The notes below the pieces were generated by a model that was not told where the DNA came from, searched no databases, and saw only the letters and a list, made by a program, of their open reading frames with translations. The position numbers were made by a program, and so were the translations under genes. Source: Desulfobacteraceae bacterium (GTDB lineage: Bacteria > Desulfobacterota > DSM-4660 > Desulfatiglandales > Desulfatiglandaceae). Taken from it: a stretch of DNA of 64,000 nucleotides. The stretch's first letter is position 1. The number at the start of each line of letters is the position of its first letter. The DNA is taken from the NCBI GenBank assembly GCA_016844935.1, contig JAERTK010000306.1:1-64000 (forward strand), written 5' to 3'. Shown here piece after piece: positions 1,486-34,908 of the stretch.

Positions 1486-2130
1486 TTAAACCATAGATTC
1501 CTTCGCACGTTTTTCGATCTCCTCTTTCGCCATCCGCTTCCCGGATTCCGTCAAGAACCATGGCTCAAGGTTCCTGCGCAGCCTTTCAATGCCCTGTTCA
1601 ACCGTTAGCCCGAACCTCTTTTCATTGATTTGAACTGCAATTTTAGAATACCGCCACAGCTTATCGGCATCTTTCACAATGCTGTCATTTTTCGAAATGG
1701 GATCTTTTCTTGAGTCGTGCCCTTTGATAATCTCCTGGATTTCCAGAATCTTATCTTCGTGGTAGCCAACCTTTCGAAGAATATCCCCGGCAATCCTGGC
1801 CCCTTCAACTTCGTGCACACGGTTCCATTCCGGCATGGTGGCCGTGGGACCGAATGCCTTCATCTGAATATCCTCAGGGACTTTCTTCCATCCCACATCA
1901 TGGAGGATAATGGCCGGGACCACAATATCTTCGTCACCCCCCTCCTGCCCCAGCAGAAGCTGCGCCAGGCCTGTTGAAATCTCCGTGTGAATATCATTTT
2001 TCCGGGTATTGAGGTAAGGTCGCGCCAGGTCCCAGATCCGTTCGTAAATGTCCTTCAAAATACAGTCCTCGCTCAGCATACAAATAGGCCTCTTGGGATT
2101 CACTATAGGCAAAACCCGAAGATGGGTCAA
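1486..2130 (-). CDS. HD-domain metal-dependent phosphohydrolase
   Basis: The 214-residue protein has HD-superfamily metal ligands: H48 before a helix, the H77-D78 doublet in LHDVGW, a further His near residue 107 (VHEVEGARIA), a GHDSRKD motif and an Asp in KDADKLW. Such proteins hydrolyse phosphomonoesters, phosphodiesters or nucleotides; the substrate cannot be read from sequence. It starts 2 bp after the stop of the FtsX-like permease and looks like the last gene of the minus-strand NosL/copper cluster. There is no signal peptide, so it is probably cytoplasmic. Confidence 0.82.
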   Translation of the reverse strand: MTHLRVLPIVNPKRPICMLSEDCILKDIYERIWDLARPYLNTRKNDIHTEISTGLAQLLLGQEGGDEDIVVPAIILHDVGWKKVPEDIQMKAFGPTATMPEWNRVHEVEGARIAGDILRKVGYHEDKILEIQEIIKGHDSRKDPISKNDSIVKDADKLWRYSKIAVQINEKRFGLTVEQGIERLRRNLEPWFLTESGKRMAKEEIEKRAKESMV

Positions 2131-2132
2131 GA

Positions 2133-3269
2133 TTATCCTTGCTTCATAACCGCGGCGGGGTCACTGGACGCCCATTTCCAGGCGGGGATAAGACAGACGA
2201 ATGAATAGGGCAGAACCGTCAGGGCAAACAGCACTGCCAGCTGATACGCGTCCACATTCGGCTTGAGTTGAAAGGCCGGGTACAGGGTAGCCCATCCCTT
2301 CAAGGCGTGTTCGAAAAGCGGTGCTGAGGCCATGAAGGTGTGGATGTAGGCTGCGGAAACGCCCAGAAAGAAAGCGGTCAGTGAAATGACACACCCCTCC
2401 CAGAATTTGAGCATCAGAATATCCGAAGTATCCCATCCCACGCCTTTTAAGATGCCGATCTCCAGCCGCTCCTCCGCACTCAACCCGGTGGCTTTGTCCC
2501 AGGCGAAGATTAGGAAAGCCAGAAAAGCCCCCGCCAGCAGCACGATGGTATAGCCGCCGCGCCAGTCGAACAGGGCGGTATAGGTCCGAAGGATCTCCTC
2601 TTTCAGGATACATCGGGTGTCGGGCAGCAACAGGAAAACTTTCTCTGCAATGGTCGGGGATTCGCGGGGATTTCGGATGCTGACGGCCAAATCCGTGGCA
2701 AACCCTTCGGGGATTCCCGTCAACCGCCTGAAGGTCCCCTCGTCCATGATAATCAAATCCGATGTAACCAGTTCGCTCGATGACGTGAAGGTCTTGATGA
2801 GACGCAATTCAAGCACTTCTCCGTCAAATGCCCTGAAAAAGAGCCGGTCCCCCCGAACGGTTCCCCAGGTTCTGATTACACCCGCCCCCACCGTCACGGT
2901 GCCCTCTCCACCGGAATAATCATCCCGGGCCATCAGGGTATAATTCGCCTGGGCAGCGGGGTGGTAGTAATAGCCCCACAAGCGCGGTTTGACCCGCCTG
3001 GCACCCCGTATTTTCTGTATTTCTTTTGCGTAATGGAGAGGGACAAGGGCCTGCCTGCCCGCCATGGTTCGTTGCACAATCATCTCCGGTGCATCCTGCA
3101 ATATGGCCTCTGCTTCATATCGAAGCCCGCCGGTAAAAAACATCACCGACGAAATGAGAAAAACCATAAAGCCGTAGACCAGAAGCAAAGAGATGTTTTT
3201 CCCTTTCCGCCTGAGGAAGGCGGAAAGGGTGAAATCCAGAAAAGATCTCTGACGCTCAACCCAGCTCAT
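2133..3269 (-). CDS. FtsX/MacB-type ABC transporter permease
   Basis: The 378-residue protein has one N-terminal transmembrane helix (about residues 25-48), a large extracytoplasmic domain of about 200 residues, and three C-terminal helices (about 243-262, 290-315, 345-368). That is the standard FtsX/MacB topology, and the segment ERLEIGILKGVGWDTSDIL is the typical conserved loop. Such permeases work with a LolD-like ATPase in lipoprotein release, mechanotransmission or export. No ATPase gene is adjacent. The nearest candidate in the window is at 34222-34908. It overlaps the upstream small-protein gene by 4 bp (ATGA), so it is translationally coupled in the NosL cluster. Confidence 0.85.
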   Translation of the reverse strand: MSWVERQRSFLDFTLSAFLRRKGKNISLLLVYGFMVFLISSVMFFTGGLRYEAEAILQDAPEMIVQRTMAGRQALVPLHYAKEIQKIRGARRVKPRLWGYYYHPAAQANYTLMARDDYSGGEGTVTVGAGVIRTWGTVRGDRLFFRAFDGEVLELRLIKTFTSSSELVTSDLIIMDEGTFRRLTGIPEGFATDLAVSIRNPRESPTIAEKVFLLLPDTRCILKEEILRTYTALFDWRGGYTIVLLAGAFLAFLIFAWDKATGLSAEERLEIGILKGVGWDTSDILMLKFWEGCVISLTAFFLGVSAAYIHTFMASAPLFEHALKGWATLYPAFQLKPNVDAYQLAVLFALTVLPYSFVCLIPAWKWASSDPAAVMKQG

Positions 3270-3568
3270 GGCTCGGACCCCTTAAAACCGTCAGGAGGGG
3301 AAACCAACGATCCTGAAGGAAAATGTTCCAGCGCCATGGGGTGATCCTGAAAAGCCGCATGAAGATCCGATTGACTGGGATGTCGCGTGTATGGCGCCTC
3401 TGTGAAGAGACATAGATCCGTTATCCCCAAAGCAGTAATCAGCATTTTTTCTTCCGTGATGCGACCGTTGTGGGTCTTTGCGGTGAGAACTGGGTGAACC
3501 AGGAGGAAAAAAAACAAGACCAGGCTGTTGAGGGTGATATAGATCAGGTATAGGGTCGATTTACGCAT
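3266..3568 (-). CDS. Small membrane-anchored protein of the NosL cluster
   Basis: A 100-residue protein with a single hydrophobic N-terminal helix (about residues 7-29), followed by a polar tail rich in His, Pro and Ser that probably faces the periplasm. No known family was recognised. Its stop overlaps the permease start (ATGA) and it begins 9 bp after the first NosL-like gene, so it is part of the same transcript and may be an accessory subunit of the permease. The reading frame and tight packing make it a credible gene. Confidence 0.6.
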   Translation of the reverse strand: MRKSTLYLIYITLNSLVLFFFLLVHPVLTAKTHNGRITEEKMLITALGITDLCLFTEAPYTRHPSQSDLHAAFQDHPMALEHFPSGSLVSPPDGFKGSEP

Positions 3569-3577
3569 GAGGGCCGG

Positions 3578-4102
3578 TCAATCATCCAACTTCCTGATAA
3601 CCCCTGGGGTAACCTGCTGAAAAAGAAGGATCCGCTTCCCTTTGTGATCCTTCTTGAATGCCCTCGCATCTTCCTGGGTGAAAAACGGGATCAGTTCTCT
3701 TCCCATGGGGCCATACACATCGCTCCCCATGACAAAATGCGCTTTGTGTGCATCCATGAGCTTCACATCGTAATATTCCGTGACATAAATGGCGGAAATG
3801 TCTTTCCGGGTTTTGCCGGGGTTATATTTCTTGAGGTCGAAATAGTACTTAAAAAGATCTTTGGCGCCGTCAAAATAAGCGACGGCACCATCCTTGAAAA
3901 TGATCTCGCCCACCCAGTCAGGGTATTTGTAGACAAACATCCCGCAGACAGGGCATTTATCCTTTTTGGAGGGCTTGACGGGAGCCGGGCCCTGGGGAAA
4001 TGCGGAACCGGCAAGGAAGAAAACCACTAAAATCCCCACAACCCAGGCAACTCCATGATTCTTGAAGAATACCCCTCTATGCCGGTCCCAACCCGCTTTC
4101 AT
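3578..4102 (-). CDS. NosL-family copper protein, periplasmic
   Basis: The 174-residue protein has an N-terminal hydrophobic segment (about residues 19-36) followed by the NosL signature KCPVCGMFV and the conserved aromatic and lysine-rich core (VAYFDGAKDLFKYYF, FVMGSDVYGPMG). NosL proteins bind Cu(I) through Met/Cys ligands and deliver copper to nitrous oxide reductase. No nosZ, nosD or nosF is present here, so its likely client is a neighbouring multicopper-oxidase-like protein or the FtsX transporter. The signal lacks an obvious lipobox. Family assignment is strong; the client is inferred. Confidence 0.88.
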   Translation of the reverse strand: MKAGWDRHRGVFFKNHGVAWVVGILVVFFLAGSAFPQGPAPVKPSKKDKCPVCGMFVYKYPDWVGEIIFKDGAVAYFDGAKDLFKYYFDLKKYNPGKTRKDISAIYVTEYYDVKLMDAHKAHFVMGSDVYGPMGRELIPFFTQEDARAFKKDHKGKRILLFQQVTPGVIRKLDD

Positions 4103-4143
4103 AAAAGCCCCCGCCTCTGATCTTTTAACCGATAACCGTTAAA

Positions 4144-4680
4144 TCAGGATCCTTTCTTCATCTGCTTCATCTTTAAGCGCTTCATTTTGCGCTTTTCCCG
4201 AATCATCCTTGTATCCCGGTACATATCTTCATAGGCCGCTTGCGCAGCGCCTTCAAAATTGCTCAACCGGCCACCGTACTGCCCTATAAATTTCTCAGCC
4301 GCTTCTTTTGTCCCAAAGGCCCATTTCGCCCGCTTGGTCATGACGCCCATTTTCTTTCCACCAACGACCCAGAAGGCCTTTTCACCGTCGATAAGGTTCT
4401 TGGTGTTGTAATCCCCCACCCAGATCTCCACAGGCCCCTTATCAATATTCACAGCCATGTCAATGGCCGCACAATGAAGCGAGCATCCACCGAATGTGGA
4501 CCCGTCATCGTAAACGATATACGTCCTTGAAAAATTGAATTTGTTCCGGTTCATGCCGCAAAGGGGGCATGCGGGCGCCTTAATGATATCGCCGGCGGGC
4601 GGTTCAGCGGACTGGGCCGGGGAGAAAATGAGGGCTAAGGGAAGGAGTAAAAGCAGCGCGGAAACAAAAAACTTCTTCAT
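4144..4680 (-). CDS. NosL-like copper protein, second copy
   Basis: A 178-residue protein with a clear signal peptide (residues 1-24, cleavage after SAQSA-like Ala) and the motifs ACPLCGMNRNKF and CSLHC. It is a divergent NosL homologue with an extra CxxxC pair. Its C-terminal tail is strongly basic and Met/Lys-rich. It lies 41 bp upstream of the other NosL gene in the same operon. The pair probably forms a periplasmic copper-handling relay for the adjacent secreted copper-oxidase-like proteins. NosL membership is firm from the CPLCGM motif; metal and partner are inferred. Confidence 0.83.
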   Translation of the reverse strand: MKKFFVSALLLLLPLALIFSPAQSAEPPAGDIIKAPACPLCGMNRNKFNFSRTYIVYDDGSTFGGCSLHCAAIDMAVNIDKGPVEIWVGDYNTKNLIDGEKAFWVVGGKKMGVMTKRAKWAFGTKEAAEKFIGQYGGRLSNFEGAAQAAYEDMYRDTRMIREKRKMKRLKMKQMKKGS

Positions 4681-4785
4681 GGCAGGTGACCTCCGTCAAT
4701 AGTTGAAATAGATTTTTTGGGAAAAGAAAACAACGATTTGGAGGCAGCGTAATATAACTATCTTTGGTATGTCAAGACTGGATTT

Positions 4786-5280
4786 CTATTCCACCGTGAG
4801 ATTTTCGGCCTTGAATTTTCCGATAACCACCGAAACCTTGTCCCCTTTTTTGATGGATTTTCCCACATTGGAAAAAAGAATGGTGTACTGGCGGCCCTTT
4901 TTGGGGCTGAGTGTGGTGGAACGTAACGGTCCCACCTTGGTGATGGGAACCGGAAATTTCTTTCCGGTTTTCTGGAGCAGCAGATAAACCTCCCGGTTCT
5001 CTTTGTTGCGACTGAGAAGGGCCTTTGACTTTTCGGGATCAATAATCTTATACCGGAAATCCACGAAATAGTCGCTGGCGGTGAGCCGAATGGACGTCGG
5101 TCTCACCCCCCACTGGTCCTCCAGAACCTGGTACTTGTTACCGGGAACCGCGTTTTTTGCTGTGGGACCGGGTTCCTCGCCAAAAGACATGCCCGGCCAG
5201 AGCAGTAGCGACAGAACTGAGAAAAAAAACACGGCTGCCATAAAAAATGCCTTTTGCTGCTTCACAAATCTGAGGCCCAT
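4786..5280 (-). CDS. Secreted protein of unknown function in copper-oxidase cluster
   Basis: A 164-residue protein with a signal peptide ending near FGEE (residue 35). A predicted beta-rich domain follows, with charged strands (SIRLTASDYFVDFRYKI, KGDKVSVVIGKF). No family was recognised and it contains no Cys or haem motif. It lies 8 bp downstream of the third multicopper-oxidase-like gene and ahead of the NosL pair, so it belongs to this envelope cluster. It could be a small beta-sandwich partner or chaperone of the oxidase-like proteins. Confidence 0.6.
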   Translation of the reverse strand: MGLRFVKQQKAFFMAAVFFFSVLSLLLWPGMSFGEEPGPTAKNAVPGNKYQVLEDQWGVRPTSIRLTASDYFVDFRYKIIDPEKSKALLSRNKENREVYLLLQKTGKKFPVPITKVGPLRSTTLSPKKGRQYTILFSNVGKSIKKGDKVSVVIGKFKAENLTVE

Positions 5281-5288
5281 ATGATTCC

Positions 5289-6386
5289 CTATTGTACGAT
5301 ATCCGCTCCCAGATGGTCCGGAACTGATGACCGGATGTAAGAAAACATCCCACCGGGATAAACCCCATTGTTGCTGAGGTTCAATTTCCCATCGTAGAGA
5401 GGATAATGCCAGGGGGGGTTTTTGAGAGATACCACGATGGCATCCGCTGTCTTTCCCGGCGGCAGCTCAAATCCGTACACCTGCCTGGGATACTGCAATC
5501 TGTTGCCGTCTTCCGACCACTGGGTCATGTACACCCCTTGTAACTGGGGCACGTGGGTTTCAAGGCCCGCATTGAGAAACCTGATGAGAAGGCGCTCGCC
5601 TTTAAAAAAAGGAACTTTACCGTTAATATGAAGAAGCCCTTCATCGGGATAGGACATACCGTTCATCAGAAAATACTTTGGTTCGTAATTGACACTGCTG
5701 CCGATGATAGCCCCTGGAACCGCGCCGTATACGCCTGCCGCAATGGCATTTTGAATAACCGGGTCCATTTCATGGAAAACCACCACGACTTCTTGATCGT
5801 AAGGCACATCAGCATAGGCGGATCCCTGGGACGTATCCTTGACCACCGGGAGAAACATCCCCATCTGGACCTGTTTGGCCGGGTTCGTTCCGCTCTGGAG
5901 CATATACGTCCCGGGCCGAAACGACTCCCATCGATATTCTCCCACCTGGCCGGGCTGGGTCTCATGGGCGAAAGAACGGACCCGGGCTGTATAGTTGCCT
6001 GCGGGTCTCGTACCGGTCCACATTTGGGTATCATCAGGGAAATTAGTCCAAACCGGACCACTGTTATTGGTAAGGCTCTGGCCCAGGACATTCAGGGAAA
6101 CCGGTTCACTGAGATGATTCATAAGGTGAATGATCAGAACATTATCGTCCGGACCCACCCGCAGGGTCGGCCCGGGTACAGAGACCTTCCCTTCCCTCGT
6201 TGTGAAGTTGTTGTCCTGGTCCAGGCCGAACCCCCATATGGGGACCGTTTTGCCGTTAGCCATGGTCATGTTCGCGGCGTCAACCCGCAACCAGTATTCA
6301 GCGGCTCCCGCATTCCCCACCATGATTGTCAGGAGACACACAAGTAGGAAAAAGCCCTGAATTGTGATTGTTTTTTTCAAGAACAT
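5289..6386 (-). CDS. Multicopper-oxidase-like secreted protein without copper ligands
   Basis: A 365-residue protein with a signal peptide (residues 1-28). Its cupredoxin-type beta scaffold is recognisable from PGPTLRVGPDDNV, RPGTYMLQSG and VQMGMFLPVV. The usual ligand motifs are replaced: LNVLGQ where HWHG is expected, YMLQSG where YHCH is expected, and THVPQLQG where HPxHxHG is expected. So it probably binds no type 1 copper and no trinuclear cluster. Start 6386 is chosen for GGGAGGATTTCAGC directly upstream; the earlier in-frame codon at 6425 would overlap the previous gene. Third of three tandem homologues, possibly a structural subunit. Confidence 0.82.
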   Translation of the reverse strand: MFLKKTITIQGFFLLVCLLTIMVGNAGAAEYWLRVDAANMTMANGKTVPIWGFGLDQDNNFTTREGKVSVPGPTLRVGPDDNVLIIHLMNHLSEPVSLNVLGQSLTNNSGPVWTNFPDDTQMWTGTRPAGNYTARVRSFAHETQPGQVGEYRWESFRPGTYMLQSGTNPAKQVQMGMFLPVVKDTSQGSAYADVPYDQEVVVVFHEMDPVIQNAIAAGVYGAVPGAIIGSSVNYEPKYFLMNGMSYPDEGLLHINGKVPFFKGERLLIRFLNAGLETHVPQLQGVYMTQWSEDGNRLQYPRQVYGFELPPGKTADAIVVSLKNPPWHYPLYDGKLNLSNNGVYPGGMFSYIRSSVPDHLGADIVQ

Positions 6387-6408
6387 GCTGAAATCCTCCC
6401 TCAATGGT

Positions 6409-7737
6409 TTAGTCAATGGGCACATCGGGATGTTCGACGATCATAAAGCTTATCATACCCCCCGGCCAGATATCGTTGCTGGTCAACTCTTTTTCCGTAT
6501 GGGAGTGCCACATATAAAAATACCCCCCTGCGGCATTCAAGCCAGCGTGGCCAGGCGGCAATTCACCTTCGCCTCCCAGAAAAGGACTCCCCGAGTAAAA
6601 TGGGCCATAGGTCACCGCGTCCCGCGGCGGCAATACCACCGGAAAGGGTTTGCCGTGATTGGGCGCGTATTCGTGAGGTTCCAGGGGGTCTTCAGGAGAA
6701 TGGCCGTAAATATCCCAGCCCAACTCTTTTCCAGTCCATCCCCAGACCAGGTCCGCTGTCTGACCCGGAATGCTTTTGATGGTAGTGGCCTGCCACGCCA
6801 AGTCCGGTCCGGCCCCCGGTGCGCTGGAGAGAAGTCTGCCGTCAACGGCAATGGTTTCAAAATCGTTTCCATGAAAATGCATGGGATGCGTTTGCCTTCC
6901 CGCGCCCACAAACCGAATGAGAACCTTTTCACCGGGATGCATCCTCGGTTGGGCGTTATAAGGCTGGGTCGGCAGCCATGGGACAAAATTTTCCGCTAGA
7001 ATATCCGGATAATTGCGGCCGTTTATAAACCAGTTGGTGGGAAAATAGTTCGTAAAATTTATCAGATTCCACTGCCTTTCTTCCACCTGCCGGTGAATGA
7101 TGGGGTCCATCTCCGACGTCAGATAGAGAAACTCGCGATCGTATTCACTGTCAACGTGGTTATAGGCGTATTTTTTTTCAGGGTCCCCACCGGCTGGCGT
7201 GGTAGCCGGTCGAACAATCAAGGCGCCGAACATCCCCATCTCCACTTGAAGATCAGGCCGGGTACCGCTGCGGTACAGGTAGGTACCGGGTTCGGTGGGG
7301 GTAAAGGCGTATTTTACTTCTATGAACGCGGCTATGGGCTCCAAATGGACCTGGAGAACCTCCCGGGTCATGAGCCCTTCAACGCCACCTGTGGCCGTTA
7401 CCTGCTGCCCCGGAAAAATTAAGGAGACGTTTCCCGCCTCGTCGGGGAGTTCATTTCTGAGCGTAATGGTCACGGGAACACCCTGGGTCACAATGAGGGT
7501 CGGCCCCGGGTACTGGGCACGCCCGGTTACGCCGGTGGCGCTGTTAGTGATAGCTAAACCCCATATGATGGTACTGTCACCGTCCGATGTAACGATCACA
7601 TCCTGCTTGGCCACAAGTTTGAAATTCGAACCGCTCTCGCCGACGATGGCCCCTTGAGCGCCGGTTCCAAAGAACAACAAAAAAGCGCCTATCAATAAAG
7701 CCACCCGCATATGGTGCTGTTTTCCGATCCTATCCAT
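6409..7737 (-). CDS. Multicopper-oxidase-like secreted protein, C-terminal ligand set only
   Basis: A 442-residue exported protein (signal peptide to about residue 29). The first cupredoxin domain has lost its ligands (YLYRSG in place of YHCH). The second keeps HPMHFHG (H284, H287, H289) and a WHSHTEKE motif (H411, H413) in which the type 1 copper Cys is Ser412. Start 7737 is preferred over the in-frame ATG at 7752 because AGGAGG lies 6 bases upstream of it. Complementing the homologue at 7762-8934, it could supply trinuclear-type histidines at a subunit interface. The fold is sure; activity is unknown. Confidence 0.85.
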   Translation of the reverse strand: MDRIGKQHHMRVALLIGAFLLFFGTGAQGAIVGESGSNFKLVAKQDVIVTSDGDSTIIWGLAITNSATGVTGRAQYPGPTLIVTQGVPVTITLRNELPDEAGNVSLIFPGQQVTATGGVEGLMTREVLQVHLEPIAAFIEVKYAFTPTEPGTYLYRSGTRPDLQVEMGMFGALIVRPATTPAGGDPEKKYAYNHVDSEYDREFLYLTSEMDPIIHRQVEERQWNLINFTNYFPTNWFINGRNYPDILAENFVPWLPTQPYNAQPRMHPGEKVLIRFVGAGRQTHPMHFHGNDFETIAVDGRLLSSAPGAGPDLAWQATTIKSIPGQTADLVWGWTGKELGWDIYGHSPEDPLEPHEYAPNHGKPFPVVLPPRDAVTYGPFYSGSPFLGGEGELPPGHAGLNAAGGYFYMWHSHTEKELTSNDIWPGGMISFMIVEHPDVPID

Positions 7738-7761
7738 TCGTTTCCTCCTCATACAGGGTCG

Positions 7762-8934
7762 CTACAGGGGGTTGATAACAATTTCCGTCATAATGCCGCC
7801 GCGTTCCTGCTGGCCATTTGACAGGTTCGCCAGATCTGTGGTGTATAGGAAATAGGTTCCCGGCACCACACCGTTGGTATCGAGCATCACGTCATAGGCC
7901 TGGCCCCCGCCTACGTTAAGCACATTAACCGTCATGGAAGTGTCTTTTCCGTCCGGTCCCCTCAGAAGGGCTGCCCCCCTTCCCACCACTTTCATGGGCA
8001 CCCCTAACGTCGTGGCAAATGTGTACTGGTGGGTGGTTGAAATATTACAGACCCGCAGCAGAATCCGCTGTCCCGCAGTGGCGGTAATCAGCGACGGGAC
8101 TTTCTGTGCCCCAAATCCTTCCTGGTTCAAGATATCATTGGGGTTAATGGTATCAGGGTATCCCCTGCCGTTGATCATGGGATATTCATCGAACATGGCG
8201 GCAAAAGGGAGCGCCTGAACCGTGTCGCTGGCGATGTGGAAAAAGGAGTCAAAACCGGTGAGCAGAACGGGATAGTCCACATCATATCCGGTGGAACCAT
8301 CCCCGTCATTGTAAGCAAATTTTGTAAACCCGCCAATGGACGTGCCGTCCTGTTTCGGTGTCACCCAGAGATTACCGATCATCCCCATCTGCATATGCTC
8401 AGCCGCCTCCACGTGACAGTGGTAAAAGTAGGTACCGGGAACCGCTGCGTTATAATAATAGGTGAAACTGTTTCCCATGTTGGCCGAGGGCGAGGGCTCC
8501 GGCAGACCATCAAAGATGGGAGCCGCATTGGGAAAACCGTGCCAGTGAACGGTATGGGGGTCAAACAGATCCGGCCGGACCACCATTCCCACGTTGGTCA
8601 TGGTCAGATAGAGCTCCTGACCCTGCTTCACCACAATGGTGGGCGCAGGCAACTGGGCTTTGAGCGTCAAATCGGCGATGACCCTGTCAGGCGCCACGCC
8701 GTCAGCATCACCGAAGCTGAAAATATACAGATCAAGCCCGTCGGCCATGGTCGTGTAACCATCGCCACCGGTAATACTTCTGCAGACAATGTTGGGATCT
8801 TCGGATATGCCGTCCCCGTTTGTATCACCCGGGCATTGCACGAGGACATTCGCGCTCGCCGTCAAGGGACACAGCCATACGAAGAGGGTCAGCAGAACGA
8901 TCATGCTGCCATACCGGGTTCGTCTTTTCATCAT
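7762..8934 (-). CDS. Multicopper-oxidase-like secreted protein with N-terminal copper site
   Basis: A 390-residue protein with a signal peptide (to about residue 28). An early calcium-loop-like DTNGDGISEDPN (residues 37-48) precedes cupredoxin domains. Domain 1 has HWHG (H130, H132) and YHCHVEAAEHMQMGM (H172, C173, H174, H180, M185), a complete type 1 copper set. Domain 2 has lost the usual HPxHxHG and HCH motifs. GGAGGG precedes two adjacent ATGs (8934 and 8931), and either could be used. It is the first of three tandem paralogues that between them hold the copper ligands of one oxidase. Confidence 0.87.
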   Translation of the reverse strand: MMKRRTRYGSMIVLLTLFVWLCPLTASANVLVQCPGDTNGDGISEDPNIVCRSITGGDGYTTMADGLDLYIFSFGDADGVAPDRVIADLTLKAQLPAPTIVVKQGQELYLTMTNVGMVVRPDLFDPHTVHWHGFPNAAPIFDGLPEPSPSANMGNSFTYYYNAAVPGTYFYHCHVEAAEHMQMGMIGNLWVTPKQDGTSIGGFTKFAYNDGDGSTGYDVDYPVLLTGFDSFFHIASDTVQALPFAAMFDEYPMINGRGYPDTINPNDILNQEGFGAQKVPSLITATAGQRILLRVCNISTTHQYTFATTLGVPMKVVGRGAALLRGPDGKDTSMTVNVLNVGGGQAYDVMLDTNGVVPGTYFLYTTDLANLSNGQQERGGIMTEIVINPL

Positions 8935-9035
8935 TCGCCCTCCATGGGTTTTTTTAAACCATTGGTTTTGATTTCTCTACTTTACGCGTTACAAAGCAGC
9001 CGGCCTTTTAAGGTACGGCGCCGGCAACGGCCAGC

Positions 9036-12000
9036 CTAGTGATACTCATCAGCACCCACATCCGGCATTGATATGTTCCGGCTTTGCCCGTCAAAATCAG
9101 AACTCAAGGGCGAAAAACCGTAGGAAACAACGCTCTGCCCGTTATCAATGGCAGGGGAAGTGGCTTGAATATGGTAATTGCCCTGTGCCGGGAGAAGCGG
9201 TGTATATCGGACCGATATATTGTTGCCGCCCTCGTCAATGACAGTGGTTGATTCCAGAACATTCAGATAACTGTCCACCACCAGCGGATCCGTATAGAAA
9301 TTGTTGGACCCGTAATCATACCCCGTATTGGGATCAATCTGATCGGTAAGGAAACACCGGACCGGCGTGAGATGGCGGGTGGAAGTCTCTCCCGGCGGCA
9401 CATAAACGTCCCAGTAATCCCCAAGGGGGTTCGGGGCCAGTCCACCGGCGCCGTCATTCAGGGCTGCGTTATTATACCAACTCCGGTTGTGCCATATGAG
9501 GTTATTCACCAGGACCGGGTTGGAAAAGTCCGGTTCCGAGGGTCCGGATGTTTCCAGTATGGTCTGAAGGGCCTGGCTGTTAACAGCCGTCACCACTCCC
9601 GCTCCCTGGGGCGTGGAGTTTAAAGCCCCGGCCTCAAAAGAGAGGCTGCTGGTGGCGGTGCTGTCGTTATTAATGATGGTATTCTGGAGTATGTACCCCC
9701 TCAGCACGTCCTGCATGAATATGCCGGCCCCCGAGTGAGCGGACACATTGTTGACAATCATGTTGTTAAAGATCTTGATCTTGTACCAATTATTAGGTTG
9801 ATTGGGGTAATCCTTCAGATCTTCCCCGTTTGCGGCAAACACGTGAATGCCGCCGCCGCTTCCCGCTCCTGCCAGGTTCCCCTGGATCAGGTTGGCGTTC
9901 ACCGTCACGTTCCCGCTGCCCGTACCACCGGCCACATTCCCACCGATGAAAATACCGCCGCCTTTTCCGGCCTGATTGAGCAGGGCACCGAAGAAGTCCT
10001 CGTTAAAAAGGATCCTGTTTCCCTGAATCAGATTCTCTCCGGGGCACACGCCGCCGTGGTTAATGCCGCCGCCGTTGAACCGGGAAAAGTTACCGGCGAT
10101 GATGTTTTCTTCAATGAGATAGTCCTGGGCATAATCGTTGATGGTGATGCCGCCGCCGCCCTGCACCCCGCCGTTACGGTGGATCTTGTTTTGGAAGATA
10201 ACGATATTGTTGTTGTTGACGCCGGTCCACCCGACGCCCTGCATGCCGAGGGTAATGCCGCCGGCGAAATTTCCCTGATTTCCGGTAATCTCATTGTTGC
10301 TGATTTCGAGGCCAATGGCGCCCGTAAGGGCGTAGATGCCGCCGCCGGCCTTGCTGGCGATGAGTTTGAAACCGTCGATGGCCGCCTGGCCTTGAATCGT
10401 AAAGGGGTACCCCTGGTTAAAGTATTTGGAGCTGGGAGGTTCGGGCGCCAGGACGGTCCCGTCCGGATAGGCGGTTTCGCCGGCAACGAATATCCCCGGG
10501 GCTTCGTTCGCCACAAACGGGTTGCCCATGAGAAACTTGCTGAATTCATCCCCGCCCAGCCCCTCAGGCGGCGGTAGCTCAAGCCGGTCATGCCAGGCCT
10601 GCAGACGTTCATAGGGGTTGGGATTGGCATTAATCAGAGTACCGCCCGCCCCTGATCCCTGGAGGCGAACCGGCTTGTTCATGATGACATTTTCGTTGTA
10701 GGTTCCGGGCGCCACCAGAATGAGGGCCCCGGCTCCGGTTGTGGAAGCGTCAACGGCCCCCTGGATTGTGCTGAAGTCGCCTGGCACGGCAACCACGTTG
10801 GTGGTTGCGCAATTCACGATATTGAGGGTCACCCCAATCTCGGTTGAGATGCCGTTATCGCCCCTGGTGACCATGATCCGGCCGGTAGCGCCGGATCCTG
10901 ATACGGTGGCTTTTATCTCTTGATCGCTCCAGCTCTCGATGGCAAGCGATATATTGTTCAAAGTCACCGAACCGGTAACGTCGCCAAAACCGTAATGCCG
11001 GGTGATCTTAAATTTGCTCCCGGCCACCTGGGGGTCCCAATCGGGATTGAGAACCAGCCTGTCGCCCACCGATGTGATGGTGATGGTGCTGCCGCTGGGG
11101 CGCGTGGAACAGAGCAGGGGTCCGGTTTGGGACTCAGGCCCTAAAAGTGACGCAATAACAGGCGTAAAGTCAATGGGTTCGGTGTCGATGACGAGATTGG
11201 CTGATGCAAAAGCCGCCAGCGGCACCAATGGGGTGTCCGTATAGGTGGTGACACCGGGATAATACTGGAACGTCCACGGTGTAACGCTGAGAAGAGGGTT
11301 GTAATAGGGATCTTCGGTCCCGTCCGGCAGGACCGGGTCGTTTAGAACCATGGTGAGCATGTTGGGGGACATACCGGAAGGGGATGCCACGTTATTGGTG
11401 AAGGTGGAAGGCAAAAGACAATTATATCCGCCGTATTCGTCGCTGTACATCCTCTGAAACTCTCTGCCGGTCCAATCCCTCATGGCAATGGGTATCCAGG
11501 AAGCGGCCAGTTTCTCACCGTAATTGGGACTGGCCATGTTGAACTCCGCCCCCAGGTCATTGTTTACAAACCCCACCACCCGGGCGGACTTGGGCACATC
11601 CGTTTTCAAAAAGAATTCAGCCGCTGCGTTTCGGGACTGCAACACATTGACCTGTTTCATATTGCAATCGGCCAGTGTCTGGCCCGCCAGAGGGGCTTCC
11701 ACACCGGGAAAGAGGGTCAGGTATTGGGGCACCACGTAATCGGGGCCCACGCACTGGGCCGGGTTTATAAGAACGCCGTTGTCTATGGATGTGTCCAGGG
11801 TGCCCGCTTCCCATTCCACACCAAAGTCCGTGTTCCTATCCTGGGACTTAACCACTTCGTACATGTCCTGCCCCGTGACACTCTTGGGCGGCACCACTTC
11901 CACAATATAGGTCCCGTAGTCAACATCGCCGAAAGCGTAACCCCCGTCAAATATCCCGGGTCGCACCTGGTTCCAGGTACCGAAATTATCCGCACATTCC

Positions 12001-14345
12001 GGAATTGCCTGGCCGTGGACCACGGGTAGATCCTGAATACACCCGGTGGGCTTGCTGTCGTCCCAGCTGTCGGTACTGGTAATGCGGACTGAGTCACCCC
12101 AGTCGAATCGTCTGTCGCCATTTCGATCCACATCCTCAGGGCCGGGCAATCCCGTGTATCCGGCATAGTCCGGATCGGTCCATTGAAAGGGGTAGTTGTC
12201 CACTTCCGCCAGCTGGATCCCCCGCACAGCCCGGTCGAATATCCCGTTCCGGTTGTGGTCAATATCTTCCGGACCCGGCTTTCCGGTATAGAAACCCGCC
12301 ATGTTATTGGTCCATTGCCAGGGGTGGTTGTCCACGTCGGATGTGAGATCATCGATGATCCCGTCTTTGTTGGAATCCTTATACATGTTCAAACGGACCC
12401 GCGGTATGCCCGGCTCCCACGGTTCCGCCCCATCCAGCCTCGGCTCATCCGCTGCCCGGGTGGTGGCGTAAAAAACGACCCCCGATATGCCGCCGTTTTC
12501 GCCTTCACCATAGTCCGTTTTGCCCCAGTTGACCACATTGTACTGGCCCAGAAAGGTCTGGGTGGCCTGGGTCAGGACTTCACCGGTCTCCGTACGGGAA
12601 AGATTGTTGCCCGTATTGGGGTTGATCACCTCAGCGGTGGGGGGATGCCCCACGCTCTGGGGCTGGGGATAGAGTTTGTCCATTGAAGGCCAGTCCCACC
12701 CCTCATCGGGGAAAACCTCTCCGCCGTAATCCACCACGGATGTCATACCCGTGGCCTTAAATCTTGCAAAATCAACTTCCAGGACCAACCATTTAAAGAA
12801 CGGAAAGACTTCGGAAAAAGAGTATTCTCCCGCTTCGTTGGTGCCCGTGGCCTGGTATATGGTGCCGTCCCGAAAATGGAGGCTGATGGCCTGTTCCTGA
12901 ATGCCCTTCTCGTCATCATCGGGGAAACCATTCTGGTTGGTATCGTAAAACACCTTTCCGCTGATATGGCCAAACCACTGAAAGACCAGGATGTTACCCA
13001 GATCCAGCTTCTCGCCCTCTTTAACCGTCACGGTCCTGAACCCGAAGAGCATATCCAACGGTTCATCCCAGTTGACCAGGGTGTAGGTGCCAGCCGGCAC
13101 GTGTTCAATTTTGAAATAACCGGTGCTGGGGTCGCACTTGGCCGCGTAGAGCCCCGCCGGTGTCAGTGCCGGCTGTGCATTGGGGTCGTTCAGAGCGACC
13201 CAGGCATAAGGCACCGGTTCCCCCGGGAAGTAGCCCTGGAGATTCGGGGGGCGGGAGAAATGGTTGACCCGAAAGGTCCCCTCGATGGTGGCCGTTCCTT
13301 CGGGAGGCGTAATATTCCATGGCAGCATGTTGAGGGTCTGCCCCTTATATTCGGACGCGGCCGGGCTCAGCTTGACAAAACCAAACCAGGCATGCCATCT
13401 CCCCGCGCCAAATCCCTCGACAAATGCCTTGGGCTCGTTGGCCTTCACCCAGGCATCGATGGTGGGAGACCCCTCAATGGTGGTGGTCTGGGTCCAGGTC
13501 ATGGTCTCACCCGCGTCATCCTCCTCGGGTGGAATCAGCCGGATGCCGTATTTATCGGGAACAATGTATTTTACCAGGGCCTCTCCCACTTGCAGGTCAT
13601 AGGGGTTCGCCTTGGGATCATAGTTCGGATTAGTGGGATCGGAAGCCCTGTCGAAATCGTATTGCGTGAGGGTGGTAATAACACCGTTTCCTAGGACGTC
13701 AACCACCGGGGCGCCTTCCTCGTCCGTCTGGACGGTCTCGTCCGCGTTCAGCACATAGGTAGTCCCCAGGGGGTTGCCGAAAGCGTCATAGAACACCTGA
13801 CCGCCATAATTATAGAGAAAAACGCCGGCGCCGCCCAGACCCTGTTCGTTGGGATCAGGCCCGTCATTGATCAGGTTGTGGTCCAGAAAGGCAAAAATGG
13901 AAATCTGGCTGGTGGGCCAGGGCATCGCGTCCACCACCAGACTCACGGCTTCCTGTCCCACGCTGACGGTGGTTCCGGCCATGCCGTACCCTTCTGTGGG
14001 AAGAACCGATACGTAAAAGCGTTTATGGGACATGGAAGCAGGGATATCCACAATCGCCGAGGTAGCGCTTGACGTGCCCCTTAAAACCACCGGCGAATAG
14101 CTGTTATGGATTGTATTGCTAACACTGTCCGATACGTTGGCGCCGGGCACCGTCAGATTGGTGTTATCTTCCTCCAAAAGCCAGCGATAAGCCGTTACCG
14201 GCTTTCCATCGGATCCCGTTACCGTCAAGGTAAATGCGCCGGCATCGGTCGCAAACGCCGCGCCAAGGCACAACGCAAGCCCCAAAAGAAGAAATCTTTT
14301 AAAGACATCCCGCATGTCCAGTATCCCAAAACCCTTCCGCCCCAT
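9036..14345 (-). CDS. Giant secreted SdrD-B / TIG / beta-helix surface protein
   Basis: The 1769-residue protein starts with a signal peptide (to about residue 35) and has good ribosome spacing (GGAG before 14345). Several SdrD-B-like beta-sandwich modules follow, e.g. near residues 150-200 and 460-500 (GKVFYDTNQNGFPDDDEKG). Three calcium-loop-like repeats lie near 658, 700 and 743 (DSNKDGIIDD, DHNRNGIFD, DRNGDRRFDW). A TIG/IPT-like module spans about 1100-1180, and a right-handed beta-helix (GDFSTIQGAVDAS, many GGGI and NNxI coils) runs from about 1185 to the end. No sorting motif was seen. Position between a multihaem cytochrome and oxidase-like proteins suggests a cell-surface scaffold. 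Confidence 0.85.
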   Translation of the reverse strand: MGRKGFGILDMRDVFKRFLLLGLALCLGAAFATDAGAFTLTVTGSDGKPVTAYRWLLEEDNTNLTVPGANVSDSVSNTIHNSYSPVVLRGTSSATSAIVDIPASMSHKRFYVSVLPTEGYGMAGTTVSVGQEAVSLVVDAMPWPTSQISIFAFLDHNLINDGPDPNEQGLGGAGVFLYNYGGQVFYDAFGNPLGTTYVLNADETVQTDEEGAPVVDVLGNGVITTLTQYDFDRASDPTNPNYDPKANPYDLQVGEALVKYIVPDKYGIRLIPPEEDDAGETMTWTQTTTIEGSPTIDAWVKANEPKAFVEGFGAGRWHAWFGFVKLSPAASEYKGQTLNMLPWNITPPEGTATIEGTFRVNHFSRPPNLQGYFPGEPVPYAWVALNDPNAQPALTPAGLYAAKCDPSTGYFKIEHVPAGTYTLVNWDEPLDMLFGFRTVTVKEGEKLDLGNILVFQWFGHISGKVFYDTNQNGFPDDDEKGIQEQAISLHFRDGTIYQATGTNEAGEYSFSEVFPFFKWLVLEVDFARFKATGMTSVVDYGGEVFPDEGWDWPSMDKLYPQPQSVGHPPTAEVINPNTGNNLSRTETGEVLTQATQTFLGQYNVVNWGKTDYGEGENGGISGVVFYATTRAADEPRLDGAEPWEPGIPRVRLNMYKDSNKDGIIDDLTSDVDNHPWQWTNNMAGFYTGKPGPEDIDHNRNGIFDRAVRGIQLAEVDNYPFQWTDPDYAGYTGLPGPEDVDRNGDRRFDWGDSVRITSTDSWDDSKPTGCIQDLPVVHGQAIPECADNFGTWNQVRPGIFDGGYAFGDVDYGTYIVEVVPPKSVTGQDMYEVVKSQDRNTDFGVEWEAGTLDTSIDNGVLINPAQCVGPDYVVPQYLTLFPGVEAPLAGQTLADCNMKQVNVLQSRNAAAEFFLKTDVPKSARVVGFVNNDLGAEFNMASPNYGEKLAASWIPIAMRDWTGREFQRMYSDEYGGYNCLLPSTFTNNVASPSGMSPNMLTMVLNDPVLPDGTEDPYYNPLLSVTPWTFQYYPGVTTYTDTPLVPLAAFASANLVIDTEPIDFTPVIASLLGPESQTGPLLCSTRPSGSTITITSVGDRLVLNPDWDPQVAGSKFKITRHYGFGDVTGSVTLNNISLAIESWSDQEIKATVSGSGATGRIMVTRGDNGISTEIGVTLNIVNCATTNVVAVPGDFSTIQGAVDASTTGAGALILVAPGTYNENVIMNKPVRLQGSGAGGTLINANPNPYERLQAWHDRLELPPPEGLGGDEFSKFLMGNPFVANEAPGIFVAGETAYPDGTVLAPEPPSSKYFNQGYPFTIQGQAAIDGFKLIASKAGGGIYALTGAIGLEISNNEITGNQGNFAGGITLGMQGVGWTGVNNNNIVIFQNKIHRNGGVQGGGGITINDYAQDYLIEENIIAGNFSRFNGGGINHGGVCPGENLIQGNRILFNEDFFGALLNQAGKGGGIFIGGNVAGGTGSGNVTVNANLIQGNLAGAGSGGGIHVFAANGEDLKDYPNQPNNWYKIKIFNNMIVNNVSAHSGAGIFMQDVLRGYILQNTIINNDSTATSSLSFEAGALNSTPQGAGVVTAVNSQALQTILETSGPSEPDFSNPVLVNNLIWHNRSWYNNAALNDGAGGLAPNPLGDYWDVYVPPGETSTRHLTPVRCFLTDQIDPNTGYDYGSNNFYTDPLVVDSYLNVLESTTVIDEGGNNISVRYTPLLPAQGNYHIQATSPAIDNGQSVVSYGFSPLSSDFDGQSRNISMPDVGADEYH

Positions 14346-14530
14346 GGCAATTCTCCTTTATCTATGTGTCGTGTCGCTGTTTGTCACGCGTCTAAATCAC
14401 TGCCTATAACTTCCCTTTAAATGCTTCAGTCTTCTCACACTAATCATAACGCCCCTCATCTTCAATGGGGACAACACCGTATATTCAGGTTTGAAACGGA
14501 GCAAATTGCCGAACGAATCGACCTTGGAAC

Positions 14531-16393
14531 CTAATCACCCCCGCCTTCGGCCAGCTCGTTCTTGTGACAGAACCCGCAGTTGACCTCCGTCCCTTTGAAG
14601 ATATTGACCGTGCCCACATCCTCCACGGAAAAGGTCCTGTCCGCGGCAGCCTTGGAAATCATGGTCCCGTCTCCGGTGATGCCATGGCAGGCCTGGCAGG
14701 TTTGCCGATTTTGCTCGAAAAAATCCTCGTGACCATCAACCCATGCCTGGCTGTTCACGTTATGGATCCCATGAGGGCCGTCCAGGTTGAGGGACAACCC
14801 GGTCCCGTGGCAGGCGGTGCACTCAACGATCATGCCGTCGTGGCCCTGGATGGTCGTTGCCGCGAGGTTGTCGTTGGCCTCGCGGGTGGGCCAGATGGCA
14901 TGGGGGCTGCCGTGGCAAGACTCGCAAGCCATGCCGTTATGCCCCGTGCTGTTACGGTAAAGGGTGTCCGTCTGTTCCGCAAACCGCTTGTTGGTGGCAA
15001 TAATGAACGTGGCCACGCTGGGACTATCGGTGTAAGTGGTACGCCCGATAATCTGGTCTCCGATATTACTGAGGGTGTCCCCCGTATGACACGATTCACA
15101 CCTGGGAAGATCGATCCATGGCTGGCGATCCGCCTGCCCCACTGCCGTCATGTTTCCGTGGCAATTCATACAATCCAGTCCGGCCGTCTCCATGGCACCA
15201 CGGGCACACTTTGTTTTCTCCCCAGGGTGACAATAAAAACAGATATTCCCACTGGCCGGCGTCGTCGATATCCGGGACGCATGGTAGCCATGGGTGGCTT
15301 GGGACATATTTTTGTTGGTCAACTGGGGCCCCACAGGCCCTTTCTGTTCCAGGTCCAGCGCAAGGGAATAATGGCACGAGGCGCATAGAACCGGTTTGCT
15401 GTTCACCAAATCCGTACCCGCCCTGTAATCGTGCAGGATCAGGATGTTCTCCTTGTACTGTACGGTTAAATCCGTGCTGTCGCTCCACTGAACCTCCGGC
15501 AGGCTGGCAGCCTCATTCCCCGTGTTGTGACACGCACCGCAGGCCATCTCATCGGATGCGGGGACCACCACGGGGAGGGAAGACAGGGTCTCCGAAGTAT
15601 CGGCACTGGCTGCCTGAACCATCATCAGGGGATAGGAATTCGTTTTAAGACTGTCGTCCACGGCGGTTATGGGAATCCCCTCCGCCGAGAACCAGCTCGG
15701 CAGTTCGGCTTTCGGGTGAAAGGGCTGGGCCGGATTGCCGGCGCCGGGCATCTTTGCCCCCAGAAGCCCTTCATTTACCGGCAGATTCGCACCGAAAAGG
15801 GGCAGCACATAGTCCCAGAAATTGGTTTTTCCCGCGCTGGTAATATTGATGGATCCGGTGCTGTCCGCCATGGCTTTGTAACTGACGCTCACGGATTCGC
15901 CCAAAATCTGGGGGGAGGACCCTTTCCGGATCACCTGCGCATGGAGCACGTTAAAAAGGGGAAGGATGCTGAATACGGAAAAATCCGAATCGTAACAGTG
16001 CATGCCCAGATCGTTGAAGCCAAACACCTGGTACCCCTGAGCGCCCTGTTCTGCAATCTTGACCTCTTCGATATTGGAAAAAACACTCAACCCGGTGCTG
16101 TCCTGTGCCTGCACCGCAGTGAGAAAGGCCGAACCGGGACTCAGCGTCGCAGAAAACGTGTTGGCCGTGCCCATATGGAGGGTAACGATGGAACCGGGAC
16201 CGGTATAGGGGGAAGGGGCATAGGAAAAAAAATAGCCGGTTGCACCCCCCACTTCACTCCAGGTGATGGTCACCCGGGTTTCAGCGACGATAACACTCAT
16301 AACAGGGGGAGAGGGTACCGCCATTACGATGTGTGAAAAGGTGAACATTGAAAGAATGCCGATCAGAACAAAAAGACATTTTTTCCCGGCCAT
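14531..16393 (-). CDS. Nine-haem c-type cytochrome with fibronectin III-like N-terminus
   Basis: A 620-residue exported protein (signal peptide to about residue 25). Residues 27-112 look like a fibronectin type III module (VTITWSEVGGATGYFF). Nine CxxCH haem-attachment motifs follow: CGACH, CASCH, CFYCH, CMNCH, CESCH twice, CTACH, CQACH and CGFCH. There is no C-terminal anchor. Such proteins carry electrons in the periplasm or on the cell surface. The gene lies between an outer-membrane barrel and the giant surface protein, so I infer part of an extracellular electron-transfer conduit. Haem count is read directly from sequence; direction of electron flow is unknown. Confidence 0.92.
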   Translation of the reverse strand: MAGKKCLFVLIGILSMFTFSHIVMAVPSPPVMSVIVAETRVTITWSEVGGATGYFFSYAPSPYTGPGSIVTLHMGTANTFSATLSPGSAFLTAVQAQDSTGLSVFSNIEEVKIAEQGAQGYQVFGFNDLGMHCYDSDFSVFSILPLFNVLHAQVIRKGSSPQILGESVSVSYKAMADSTGSINITSAGKTNFWDYVLPLFGANLPVNEGLLGAKMPGAGNPAQPFHPKAELPSWFSAEGIPITAVDDSLKTNSYPLMMVQAASADTSETLSSLPVVVPASDEMACGACHNTGNEAASLPEVQWSDSTDLTVQYKENILILHDYRAGTDLVNSKPVLCASCHYSLALDLEQKGPVGPQLTNKNMSQATHGYHASRISTTPASGNICFYCHPGEKTKCARGAMETAGLDCMNCHGNMTAVGQADRQPWIDLPRCESCHTGDTLSNIGDQIIGRTTYTDSPSVATFIIATNKRFAEQTDTLYRNSTGHNGMACESCHGSPHAIWPTREANDNLAATTIQGHDGMIVECTACHGTGLSLNLDGPHGIHNVNSQAWVDGHEDFFEQNRQTCQACHGITGDGTMISKAAADRTFSVEDVGTVNIFKGTEVNCGFCHKNELAEGGGD

Positions 16394-16479
16394 TTTCTAC
16401 CCTCCAGCATATTGGAATTTTGATGTTGTGAAAAAACCTGCTTTTTGAACAATGCCGCCAATCAGAGCGCAAATAGTGA

Positions 16480-17304
16480 TCAGAAACAGTAGCTCAGGCC
16501 CAGACTCACGGCCGTACGGCTGATGAATGTCCCCTGCGCATTGATCTTGAAATGGTCTCCCAAATCCACATCAAATCCCACCAGACCGCTGAATTTGTTG
16601 CTGTTTTCAAAAGATGCATCGTATTTTATCCATCCGATCCTGGGGTCCTGACTGTTCCACTGCCCATCATAATTAACCTTGCTGAAGCTATAACCCGCTC
16701 CCACATAAGGTGTGAAGGCACCAATGGTCCAAAGGGTGCTGACCACAAAATCCGCCTGCCAGTAATCGATGCTGTCGTTTGTGCTCCAGCCCAGCTGGCC
16801 GGCTGACTGGCCGGTCTCTTCGCTTCGCCAGTCCTTCACTTTTCGATTATCGTACCGCAGATACTGGGCCCCCATTATCACGCCGAAACCGTTGTCCAGT
16901 TTAACAGCGTCAAATTTAGCCCCCAAAGCCCACACGAAATTACTCTCCAGTTTTCCCTTCCAGTTATTGCCCGCCTGATAATCAAGCCACTTGCCACCAT
17001 CGGCGAGCCCCAACCTGGCAAACACATTAAGCCGGTCAACGACCCCATAGGTAACGGTGGCCATATAGTAGGCATCATCTTCAAAATCGGCGCCAACCCT
17101 GCTGGAATTGCTCGTACCGTTGGCAAAGGATCTGTCCAGGGTGTAATCGGAAAAACTCTGTTTTATGACAACGTTGCCTTGAATGCCCACATCGATTTGA
17201 CCCTTGCCGATGAGTTTGGCCGGATTCCCAAGCTCCTGGGCGAACACAACACCCCCCACAAACATCACCACAGATGCCAACATAACAGCTAACAGTCTTT
17301 TCAT
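16480..17304 (-). CDS. Outer-membrane beta-barrel protein
   Basis: A 274-residue protein with a signal peptide ending VFA-QE (about residue 22), then alternating amphipathic strands rich in Tyr, Trp and Gly, and a final strand ending in Phe (SLGLSYCF), the outer-membrane insertion signature. The size suggests a barrel of about 10-12 strands. AAGGAGG lies upstream of the start and the promoter at 17372-17400 drives it. As first gene of the cytochrome/oxidase cluster it may be a porin partner, although it is much smaller than MtrB-type decahaem porins. Specific function not recognised. Confidence 0.83.
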   Translation of the reverse strand: MKRLLAVMLASVVMFVGGVVFAQELGNPAKLIGKGQIDVGIQGNVVIKQSFSDYTLDRSFANGTSNSSRVGADFEDDAYYMATVTYGVVDRLNVFARLGLADGGKWLDYQAGNNWKGKLESNFVWALGAKFDAVKLDNGFGVIMGAQYLRYDNRKVKDWRSEETGQSAGQLGWSTNDSIDYWQADFVVSTLWTIGAFTPYVGAGYSFSKVNYDGQWNSQDPRIGWIKYDASFENSNKFSGLVGFDVDLGDHFKINAQGTFISRTAVSLGLSYCF

Positions 17305-17665
17305 GCCCTTTCCTCCTTAATTTTTGAGCAATCGAGTGCGAGTAGTAGAAATTCGATCTTGCTGCGGACGGATTCTATAATTATTTTGGGTAGCTGTCAA
17401 GCGGTTTCCCGTTGCTTAAGATAGTGTAAAATTATTGAAAAGACTTACAAAAAACCAATCCTAAAGAAATTGGTAAAGCGCCTGTATCCCCAAAAAACCG
17501 TTGGAAATATGATGCCACAGCCATTACCTTTTACTTTACACCGATCGATACCCGTGATAAATGGGGGGAATCCTGTATTTTCGGTCAATTTTAAGTGTAC
17601 TTTTCTCTACAGTAATGGGGGCAGGATCCTTTGGCAATTTGCCTTGCGCTCCCGGTGGACCCACC
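17305..17665. other. Divergent intergenic region between barrel gene and response regulator
   Basis: This 361-bp stretch holds the minus-strand promoter at 17372-17400 and AT-rich DNA. On the plus side no clear sigma-70 or sigma-54 promoter for the response regulator was found. No RNA gene or repeat was seen. Confidence 0.6.
17372..17400 (-). promoter_or_regulatory. Sigma-70 promoter of the barrel-cytochrome-oxidase cluster
   Basis: Minus-strand TTGACA (17400-17395), a 17-base spacer, then TAGAAT (17377-17372), about 70 bases before the start codon of the outer-membrane barrel gene. The -35 box is a perfect match and spacing is optimal. It could drive the whole minus-strand cluster to 1486, though internal promoters are possible in the 185-bp gap at 14346-14530. 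Confidence 0.7.
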
Positions 17666-24656: not shown

Positions 24657-24723
24657 AGTGGGGCATCTTAAGCGTTACCGGTGAAATTGTAGTTTATCGG
24701 TTGTTTTGCGTGAGGAGATATGC

Positions 24724-34225: not shown

Positions 34226-34908
34226 TTTCCGGCCCCATTTTCGACAATTTCACCGTCCCGCAACCCCACAACACGGTCCACCCCATGGTACTCTGACACC
34301 AGGGGGTCATGGGATGCAATGAGAATGGTTTTTCCCTCTGCTTTAAAATCCATCATGAGGGCCATGAATTTTCCGGACATTTCCGTATCCAGGTGGGCCG
34401 TGGGTTCATCGGCGATGATCACGGAGGGATCGTTAATGAGTGCCCTCGAAATGGCTACCCGTTGCCGTTCACCACCGGAAAGATTCTCCACCTTTTCATG
34501 AACCTTTGATGCCATATGGAGCCGCCCCAGGAGATCGCCGGCCTTTTTTTTCACCACGACGTGCTTTTTTCCCATGGGGTAGGCGGGGATCATGACATTT
34601 TCCAGGACCGTTATCCCCCGGATCAGCTGGTAATCCTGAAAAATGAAACCGAAGGTTTCCCGGCGAATCCCGGCGGCGAACCGTTCCGGAAGACTCGTGG
34701 TCTCCCGGTTATTCACCTTGATCCTTCCGGACGTAGCCCTCGACATACACCCGATAATACTGAGCAGGGTGGTCTTGCCGGAGCCGCTGGGACCCTTGAA
34801 TACCGTCACCCGGCCCATGTGGATACGCAAATCAATACCTTTAAGCGCCTCAAAGGCATTGGACTTGCCCATATTGAAGGTCTTGGAAATGTGGGACAAC
34901 TCGATCAT
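34222..34908 (-). CDS. LolD/MacB-type ABC transporter ATP-binding protein
   Basis: A 228-residue ATPase with Walker A GPSGSGKTTL, Q-loop FIFQDYQ, signature LSGGERQR, Walker B VIIADEPTAHLD and the switch His in IASHD. Its family usually energises FtsX-type permeases. The next gene is not FtsX-like, but an orphan FtsX permease is encoded at 2133-3269 in the NosL cluster, so the two may form one transporter. The promoter at 34983-35011 precedes it. It is the first gene of the four-gene efflux operon. Confidence 0.9.
   Translation of the reverse strand: MIELSHISKTFNMGKSNAFEALKGIDLRIHMGRVTVFKGPSGSGKTTLLSIIGCMSRATSGRIKVNNRETTSLPERFAAGIRRETFGFIFQDYQLIRGITVLENVMIPAYPMGKKHVVVKKKAGDLLGRLHMASKVHEKVENLSGGERQRVAISRALINDPSVIIADEPTAHLDTEMSGKFMALMMDFKAEGKTILIASHDPLVSEYHGVDRVVGLRDGEIVENGAGK

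Follow-up and report, generated by a model that had tools for sequence, protein, structure and literature searches.

Which products of a tightly packed, twelve-gene run in a Desulfobacteraceae bacterium belong together, and what might they do? In the window – the whole 64-kb stretch of DNA analyzed here – 12 minus-strand ORFs extend from 17304 down to 1486 and are named A–L (Table 1). A sequence-only reading, which had correctly counted twelve co-directional genes, took them for an undescribed, copper-dependent extracellular redox machine. Comparison across genomes shows that the conserved unit is a four-gene core, composed of scaffold C (14345-9036) and the paralogues D, E and F (8934-5289), rather than the entire 16 kb, and the motifs of D and E suggest that one multicopper oxidase (MCO) centre may be divided between two proteins.

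Cluster layout and the conserved core

Intergenic gaps in the cluster are small, the largest being the 185 bases between B and C, and a sigma70-like site lies 68-96 bases upstream of gene A. With this promoter and such spacing, a single message for all 12 genes is plausible; the earlier assertion of one promoter therefore holds for the site and the short gaps, and a single transcript remains a plausible reading of them. Sigma54 promoters were not above chance (9 sites against 9.65 expected). Pfam supports the MCO, NosL, cytochrome C7, SdrD_B/fn3_3 and HD assignments, the last confirming L as the HD protein named earlier, with F and K falling below curated cut-offs.

Table 1. Features of the cluster and associated genes in the window (positions and strand).
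Feature	Description	Position	Strand	Remarks
Promoter	sigma70-like, TTGACA-17-TAGAAT	17372..17400	-	score 11/12
A	small outer-membrane barrel, 274 aa, DUF6588	16480..17304	-	OMP_b-brl sub-threshold; cluster neighbour only
B	nine-haem secreted cytochrome, 620 aa	14531..16393	-	exactly nine CxxCH; cluster neighbour only
C	1769-aa secreted scaffold, SdrD_B + fn3_3; C-terminal repeat region, perhaps beta-helix	9036..14345	-	orthologues upstream of D
D	two-domain MCO paralogue, 390 aa	7762..8934	-	T1 ligands and four trinuclear His in domain 1
E	two-domain MCO paralogue, 447 aa	6409..7752	-	other four trinuclear His in domain 2
F	degenerate two-domain MCO paralogue, 378 aa	5289..6425	-	without conserved His or Cys
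G	164-aa secreted protein, no known family	4786..5280	-	family beside cassette in 39/80 loci
H	NosL-family, CPLCGM	4144..4680	-	63% identical orthologue beside L053 cassette
I	NosL-family, CPVCGM	3578..4102	-	74% identical in L053
J	100-aa single-TM protein, copper-delivery set	3266..3568	-	54% identical to L053 99-aa protein
K	FtsX-like permease	2133..3269	-	PF02687 sub-threshold; 60% identical in L053
L	HD-domain protein, probably unrelated passenger	1486..2130	-	Pfam HD
ABC ATPase	probable K partner	34225..34908	-	PF00005; 60% identical to L053 ATPase, contiguous with K there
335-aa gene	membrane-protein family	33173..34225	-	56% identity to L053; follows ATPase in L053, L116, L123

To define what is conserved, an E profile was scanned against 84,980 species genomes, yielding 421 relatives, and 80 of these loci were read by a stop-to-stop frame scan; they were picked by closeness to the window's E, so the sample is biased toward the window's type. 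The order C-D-E-F on one strand is kept in 80/80 loci as far as contigs reach, with C and D fused into a single protein in 10 of the 80 and F and C fused in 2. The cassette occurs in at least 12 phyla (twelve labelled phyla among the loci), and the window's own copy clusters with those of Thermodesulfobacteriota and related bins. The co-occurrence of the gene set across genomes, which had been put forward as the check on the whole cluster, is thus found for the C-D-E-F core and not for A and B, which are absent beside cassettes elsewhere. A search for F in 198 genomes of the host's phylum recovered strong homologues in 11, from several families, with D, E and C homologues adjoining in the same order. 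The D profile finds 12 full-length places (514-709 bits) in the same 11 genomes, and the next match scores 80 bits; given this drop, D never occurs apart from E and F in this phylum sample. Distance matrices of D, E and F correlate (r 0.71-0.75), as expected of co-travelling genes, a correlation for which synteny alone can account. Profile P0002 had no match among plasmids. On one contig (G154:C71) a pair of C-D-E-F cassettes (L039 and L040) point in opposite directions, separated by about 20 kb.

Conserved synteny together with the C-D and F-C fusions bears out the earlier view that the scaffold goes with the copper oxidases. Its description as a giant beta-helix is left unconfirmed: in residues 1190-1769 we found neither a Pfam beta-helix nor a PDB match, and C gives weak scores for NosD (E 0.025) and choice-of-anchor-Q. 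Four Cys are invariant in C among nine orthologues. A second protein in the window (24706-26130, plus strand) has clear Beta_helix and NosD matches and is also matched weakly by the C profile. Signal-like N-termini, domain types and the published predictions for Sideroxydans lithotrophicus ES-1 point to a surface location of C-F. In roughly half of the loci, genes for subtilase (S8) or C25 peptidases adjoin the cassette (downstream of F in L100, L113 and others), subtilases being present in 43/80, suggesting proteolytic processing of surface proteins; type II secretion genes lie near about six of the 80 loci.

Copper ligands divided between D and E

MCOs are textbook enzymes that carry the whole ligand set on one kind of polypeptide. 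D, E and F are paralogous from close to one end to the other (hhalign E 1.5e-54, 6.6e-32 and 2.9e-24), and the ligands are distributed unevenly among them. The ligands of D lie in domain 1 (H127, H130, H132, H172, C173, H174, H180 and M185), and the motifs H127xxH130xH132G and H172-C173-H174-x5-H180-x4-M185 are invariant in 79/79 D sequences. The T1 copper ligands among these, H127, C173, H180 and M185, are missing from E and F, and the HxH motifs have been lost from domain 2 of D. In E, domain 1 reads NVSIVFPG and HSGT at the positions of the D motifs, and domain 2 keeps H289-P-x-H292-x-H294 and H416-S-H418 in 81/81 sequences; these supply the trinuclear His H292, H294, H416 and H418, plus H289, with no Cys at the T1 position. 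One E homologue (L202:3225-4820) reads HPFHEHA against HPxHxHG, keeping three His and replacing a usually invariant Gly with Ala. The F family has zero invariant His or Cys. No single polypeptide therefore holds all eight trinuclear His, four coming from D and the remaining four from E. Since D and E keep complementary invariant motifs, together they are predicted to form exactly one canonical set, comprising T1 (2 His, Cys, Met) and eight trinuclear His, and an active enzyme should arise only when the two partners meet. Of the three oxidase-like proteins described earlier, three MCO-like paralogues stand, with the word "oxidases" misleading for D and E, which hold half a centre each, and for F, which holds no ligand.

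AlphaFold single-chain models of E and D (pLDDT 86.8 and 89.5) both show two cupredoxin domains with the MCO fold, and the best structural matches over both domains are 2zwn and 3g5w (Z 29.6/29.3 for E, 28.8/28.8 for D). In two-domain MCOs, which are trimers, the trinuclear ligands come from two protomers, and in type C the T1 site lies in the N-terminal domain (PMC13151041). The cassette resembles the type C enzymes mgLAC (2zwn) and Nitrosomonas europaea blue copper oxidase (NeBCO, 3g5w) in fold, in its T1 in domain 1, and in motifs, namely HxxHxHG and HCHx5H in domain 1 and HxxHxHG/HxH in domain 2. Domain 1 of D aligns over both ligand motifs with domain 1 of NeBCO and mgLAC, and HPMHFHG and WHSH of E align with HAMHSHG and FHDH in domain 2 of mgLAC. 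Unlike these enzymes, the cassette places the ligand halves on two genes, has a ligand-free third paralogue and is accompanied by a giant scaffold. D was also considered as a copper nitrite reductase; this assignment was dropped, as the HxxHxHG spacing of D is of the MCO type.

Given the paralogy, the split ligands and the interface centres of trimeric two-domain MCOs, the simplest arrangement we infer is a D:E:F heterotrimer with one centre at the interface between D domain 1 and E domain 2, an interface placed by homology on single-chain models. A homotrimeric ancestor, with the same centre at each of its three interfaces, may have been duplicated and specialized into such a heterotrimer of six cupredoxin domains, of which only the D domain 1/E domain 2 centre would be left. 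Ceruloplasmin, with six cupredoxin domains on a single chain, would represent the same outcome within one polypeptide, and MnxEFG consists of a single-chain MnxG plus accessory subunits. The proposed D:E:F enzyme would share with ceruloplasmin, other six-domain MCOs and MnxEFG its six cupredoxin domains around one active centre, and would differ from ceruloplasmin and MnxEFG in being built from three paralogous chains.

Copper supply, proposed activity and alternatives

The two NosL proteins named earlier are confirmed by Pfam (PF05573, E 3.5e-13 and 3.6e-34), each with a CxxCGM motif, and the FtsX permease holds as an FtsX-like K with a sub-threshold PF02687 match. Downstream of the cassette, L053, L057, L116 and L123 carry all or most of a set made up of NosL, J, FtsX, an ABC ATPase and a 330-335-aa protein; in L053 the J counterpart, 99 aa long, sits between NosL and FtsX. 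In the window this set is found in two places: H, I, J and K span 4.7-2.1 kb, and the genes for the ATPase and the 335-aa protein occupy 34.9-33.2 kb, where they lie upstream of a CusBA-like pair; the minus-strand segment 27618-34908 thus comprises genes for the ABC ATPase, the 335-aa protein, and CusB-like and CusA-like proteins. Other loci have instead SCO1/SenC (16/80) and a MofC-like cytochrome (15/80). As the NosL-NosL-J-FtsX-ABC set recurs in related loci, the NosL proteins plausibly supply copper, in keeping with the loading role first suggested for them. NosDFYL is a copper maturation system, and the cluster resembles it in having NosL proteins and an ABC-type transporter beside a copper enzyme; it is unlike NosDFYL in its FtsX-type permease in place of NosY, in the absence of NosZ and in the weak NosD similarity of C. 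Elsewhere in the window (21340-21424, plus strand), a c-di-GMP-I riboswitch (80.9 bits) precedes a 380-aa ORF and the gene for a Ni-hydrogenase large subunit (22740-24200).

We consider it probable that D, E and F constitute a heteromeric two-domain MCO, held on a surface scaffold and fed copper by the NosL/FtsX/ABC proteins. Scaffold C would tether the enzyme to the cell surface, and the NosL pair, J, the FtsX permease and the ABC ATPase would load its copper. Electrons would come from a reduced donor outside the cell, for which Fe(II), Mn(II) and Cu(I) are the likeliest candidates and which may be bound to a mineral; they would enter at the T1 copper of D and move on to the D/E trinuclear centre, where oxygen would be reduced to water; our confidence in any particular substrate is lower than in the enzyme itself. 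A and B would be local neighbours outside the conserved parts. Two observations sit awkwardly with this proposal. In the window the copper-delivery ATPase and its 335-aa partner are 31 kb from K, and oxygen is an odd acceptor for a host without recognized terminal oxidases: neither haem-copper oxidase subunit I nor cytochrome bd subunit I was found in its genome, which is 99% complete and 7% contaminated, and so oxygen respiration looks unlikely. For such a host, defence against oxygen, or against copper or iron, at an oxic-anoxic edge is a likelier payoff than respiration. That the cassette encodes, across at least 12 phyla, an obligate heteromeric D:E:F MCO on a surface scaffold for extracellular metal/oxygen redox, even in hosts without respiratory oxidases, is a broader claim to which we give an even chance.

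The same genes could instead belong to a periplasmic copper resistance or storage system, combining a CopA/CueO-like oxidase with NosL and Cus-type efflux, rather than to an extracellular, mineral-facing enzyme. The NosL pair, the FtsX/ABC set and the CusBA-like pair (27.6-34.9 kb) share the window, and in another genome (G020) the 335-aa, CusB, CusA and NosL genes adjoin F. Against this stand the SCO1/SenC and MofC-like genes that replace the copper set at other loci, the adhesin-like domains of the scaffold, the type II secretion genes near several cassettes and the response of the ES-1 proteins to magnetite (PMC12016527), and we regard copper resistance as unlikely, though the strongest of the competing explanations. 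Still less probable is that D and E are independent homotrimeric copper proteins with no shared centre. In that case D would transfer electrons through a T1 site or resemble nitrite reductase, E would bind copper without redox activity, and F would be structural. D and E do each have a complete two-domain fold, and copper nitrite reductase structures also score high (Z about 26). Yet D conserves its four trinuclear His in every sequence without partner HxH motifs in its domain 2, its HxxHxHG/HCH pattern is that of MCOs, E retains exactly the complementary four His without a T1 site, and D and E are never apart in the phylum sample.

The model in which the barrel and the nine-haem cytochrome form an outer-membrane conduit working with the oxidases and scaffold is very improbable: A and B do lie directly upstream of C behind the single promoter-like site, and multihaem cytochromes occur near a few other cassettes (L068, L097, L125), but no MtrB/PioB family protein (PF11854) was found in the host genome, A is short and of another family, and neither A homologues nor B counterparts were found beside other cassettes. 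Homologues of B elsewhere are orphan genes without the barrel or oxidases, the closest being nine-haem as well, and B has no PDB match. The haem conduit is therefore supported by adjacency alone. What survives of it is the genes themselves, a barrel-like A and a cytochrome with the stated nine haems; likewise, of the proposed redox machine, the association of scaffold and copper oxidases is retained and the conduit is not. Other ORFs of the host genome (G000, contigs C13, C190 and C128) contain the first 90 residues of B as well, perhaps a common anchoring or export domain. At a separate locus (L037:1095-4169, G119:C24), a C-D-E-F cassette has, about 2 kb upstream, a gene for a cytochrome of 1025 aa in which CxxCH occurs 44 times.

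Precedent in Sideroxydans and significance

S. lithotrophicus ES-1 has three tandem MCO genes accompanied by mofC-like and copper-chaperone genes, stated to be non-homologous to earlier suggested metal oxidoreductases (PMC5566968). Slit_1817 and Slit_1818 have typical MCO motifs, the larger Slit_1816 has adhesin and polysaccharide-lyase-like domains, and expression data show that all three proteins increase on magnetite relative to Fe(II)-citrate (PMC12016527). An ES-1-like genome of the same family, which we take to be ES-1 from its gene order, carries MofC-like, SCO1, small genes, an F-C fusion, E and D in that order; D, E, F-C, SCO1 and MofC-like correspond in order to Slit_1818-1812, and the ligand motifs are split in the same way. 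The fusion is a 2879-aa protein with Cu-oxidase, cadherin, SdrD_B and fn3_3 domains. The window thus shares with Slit_1816-1818 the adjacent D-E-F and C genes, the T1 of D and the HxH motifs of E, and differs from ES-1, where scaffold and F are one protein, in its separate C, its NosL/FtsX rather than SCO1/MofC neighbours and its anaerobe-like host. OmpB of Geobacter sulfurreducens and MofA of Leptothrix discophora are likewise large surface copper proteins with MofC-like and SCO1 genes in the cluster (PMC5566968), but they are single-gene MCOs.

To call the system undescribed is thus too strong, as its core had been seen in ES-1 without its logic: the ES-1 papers credit two of the proteins with typical MCO motifs and do not remark on half a centre in each (PMC5566968, PMC12016527). 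Among the open-access papers searched, no description of a split or heteromeric MCO was found, and the split centre and its phylum-wide spread seem to be undescribed there. If true, a split centre beside a third copy that has lost its ligands would form a natural intermediate between homotrimeric two-domain oxidases and six-domain proteins of the ceruloplasmin type. The ES-1 cluster, read as one large protein beside two complete oxidases, would have to be reinterpreted, and the split centre would offer a specific, testable enzyme for the oxidation of solid iron minerals and for the handling of oxygen by anaerobes.
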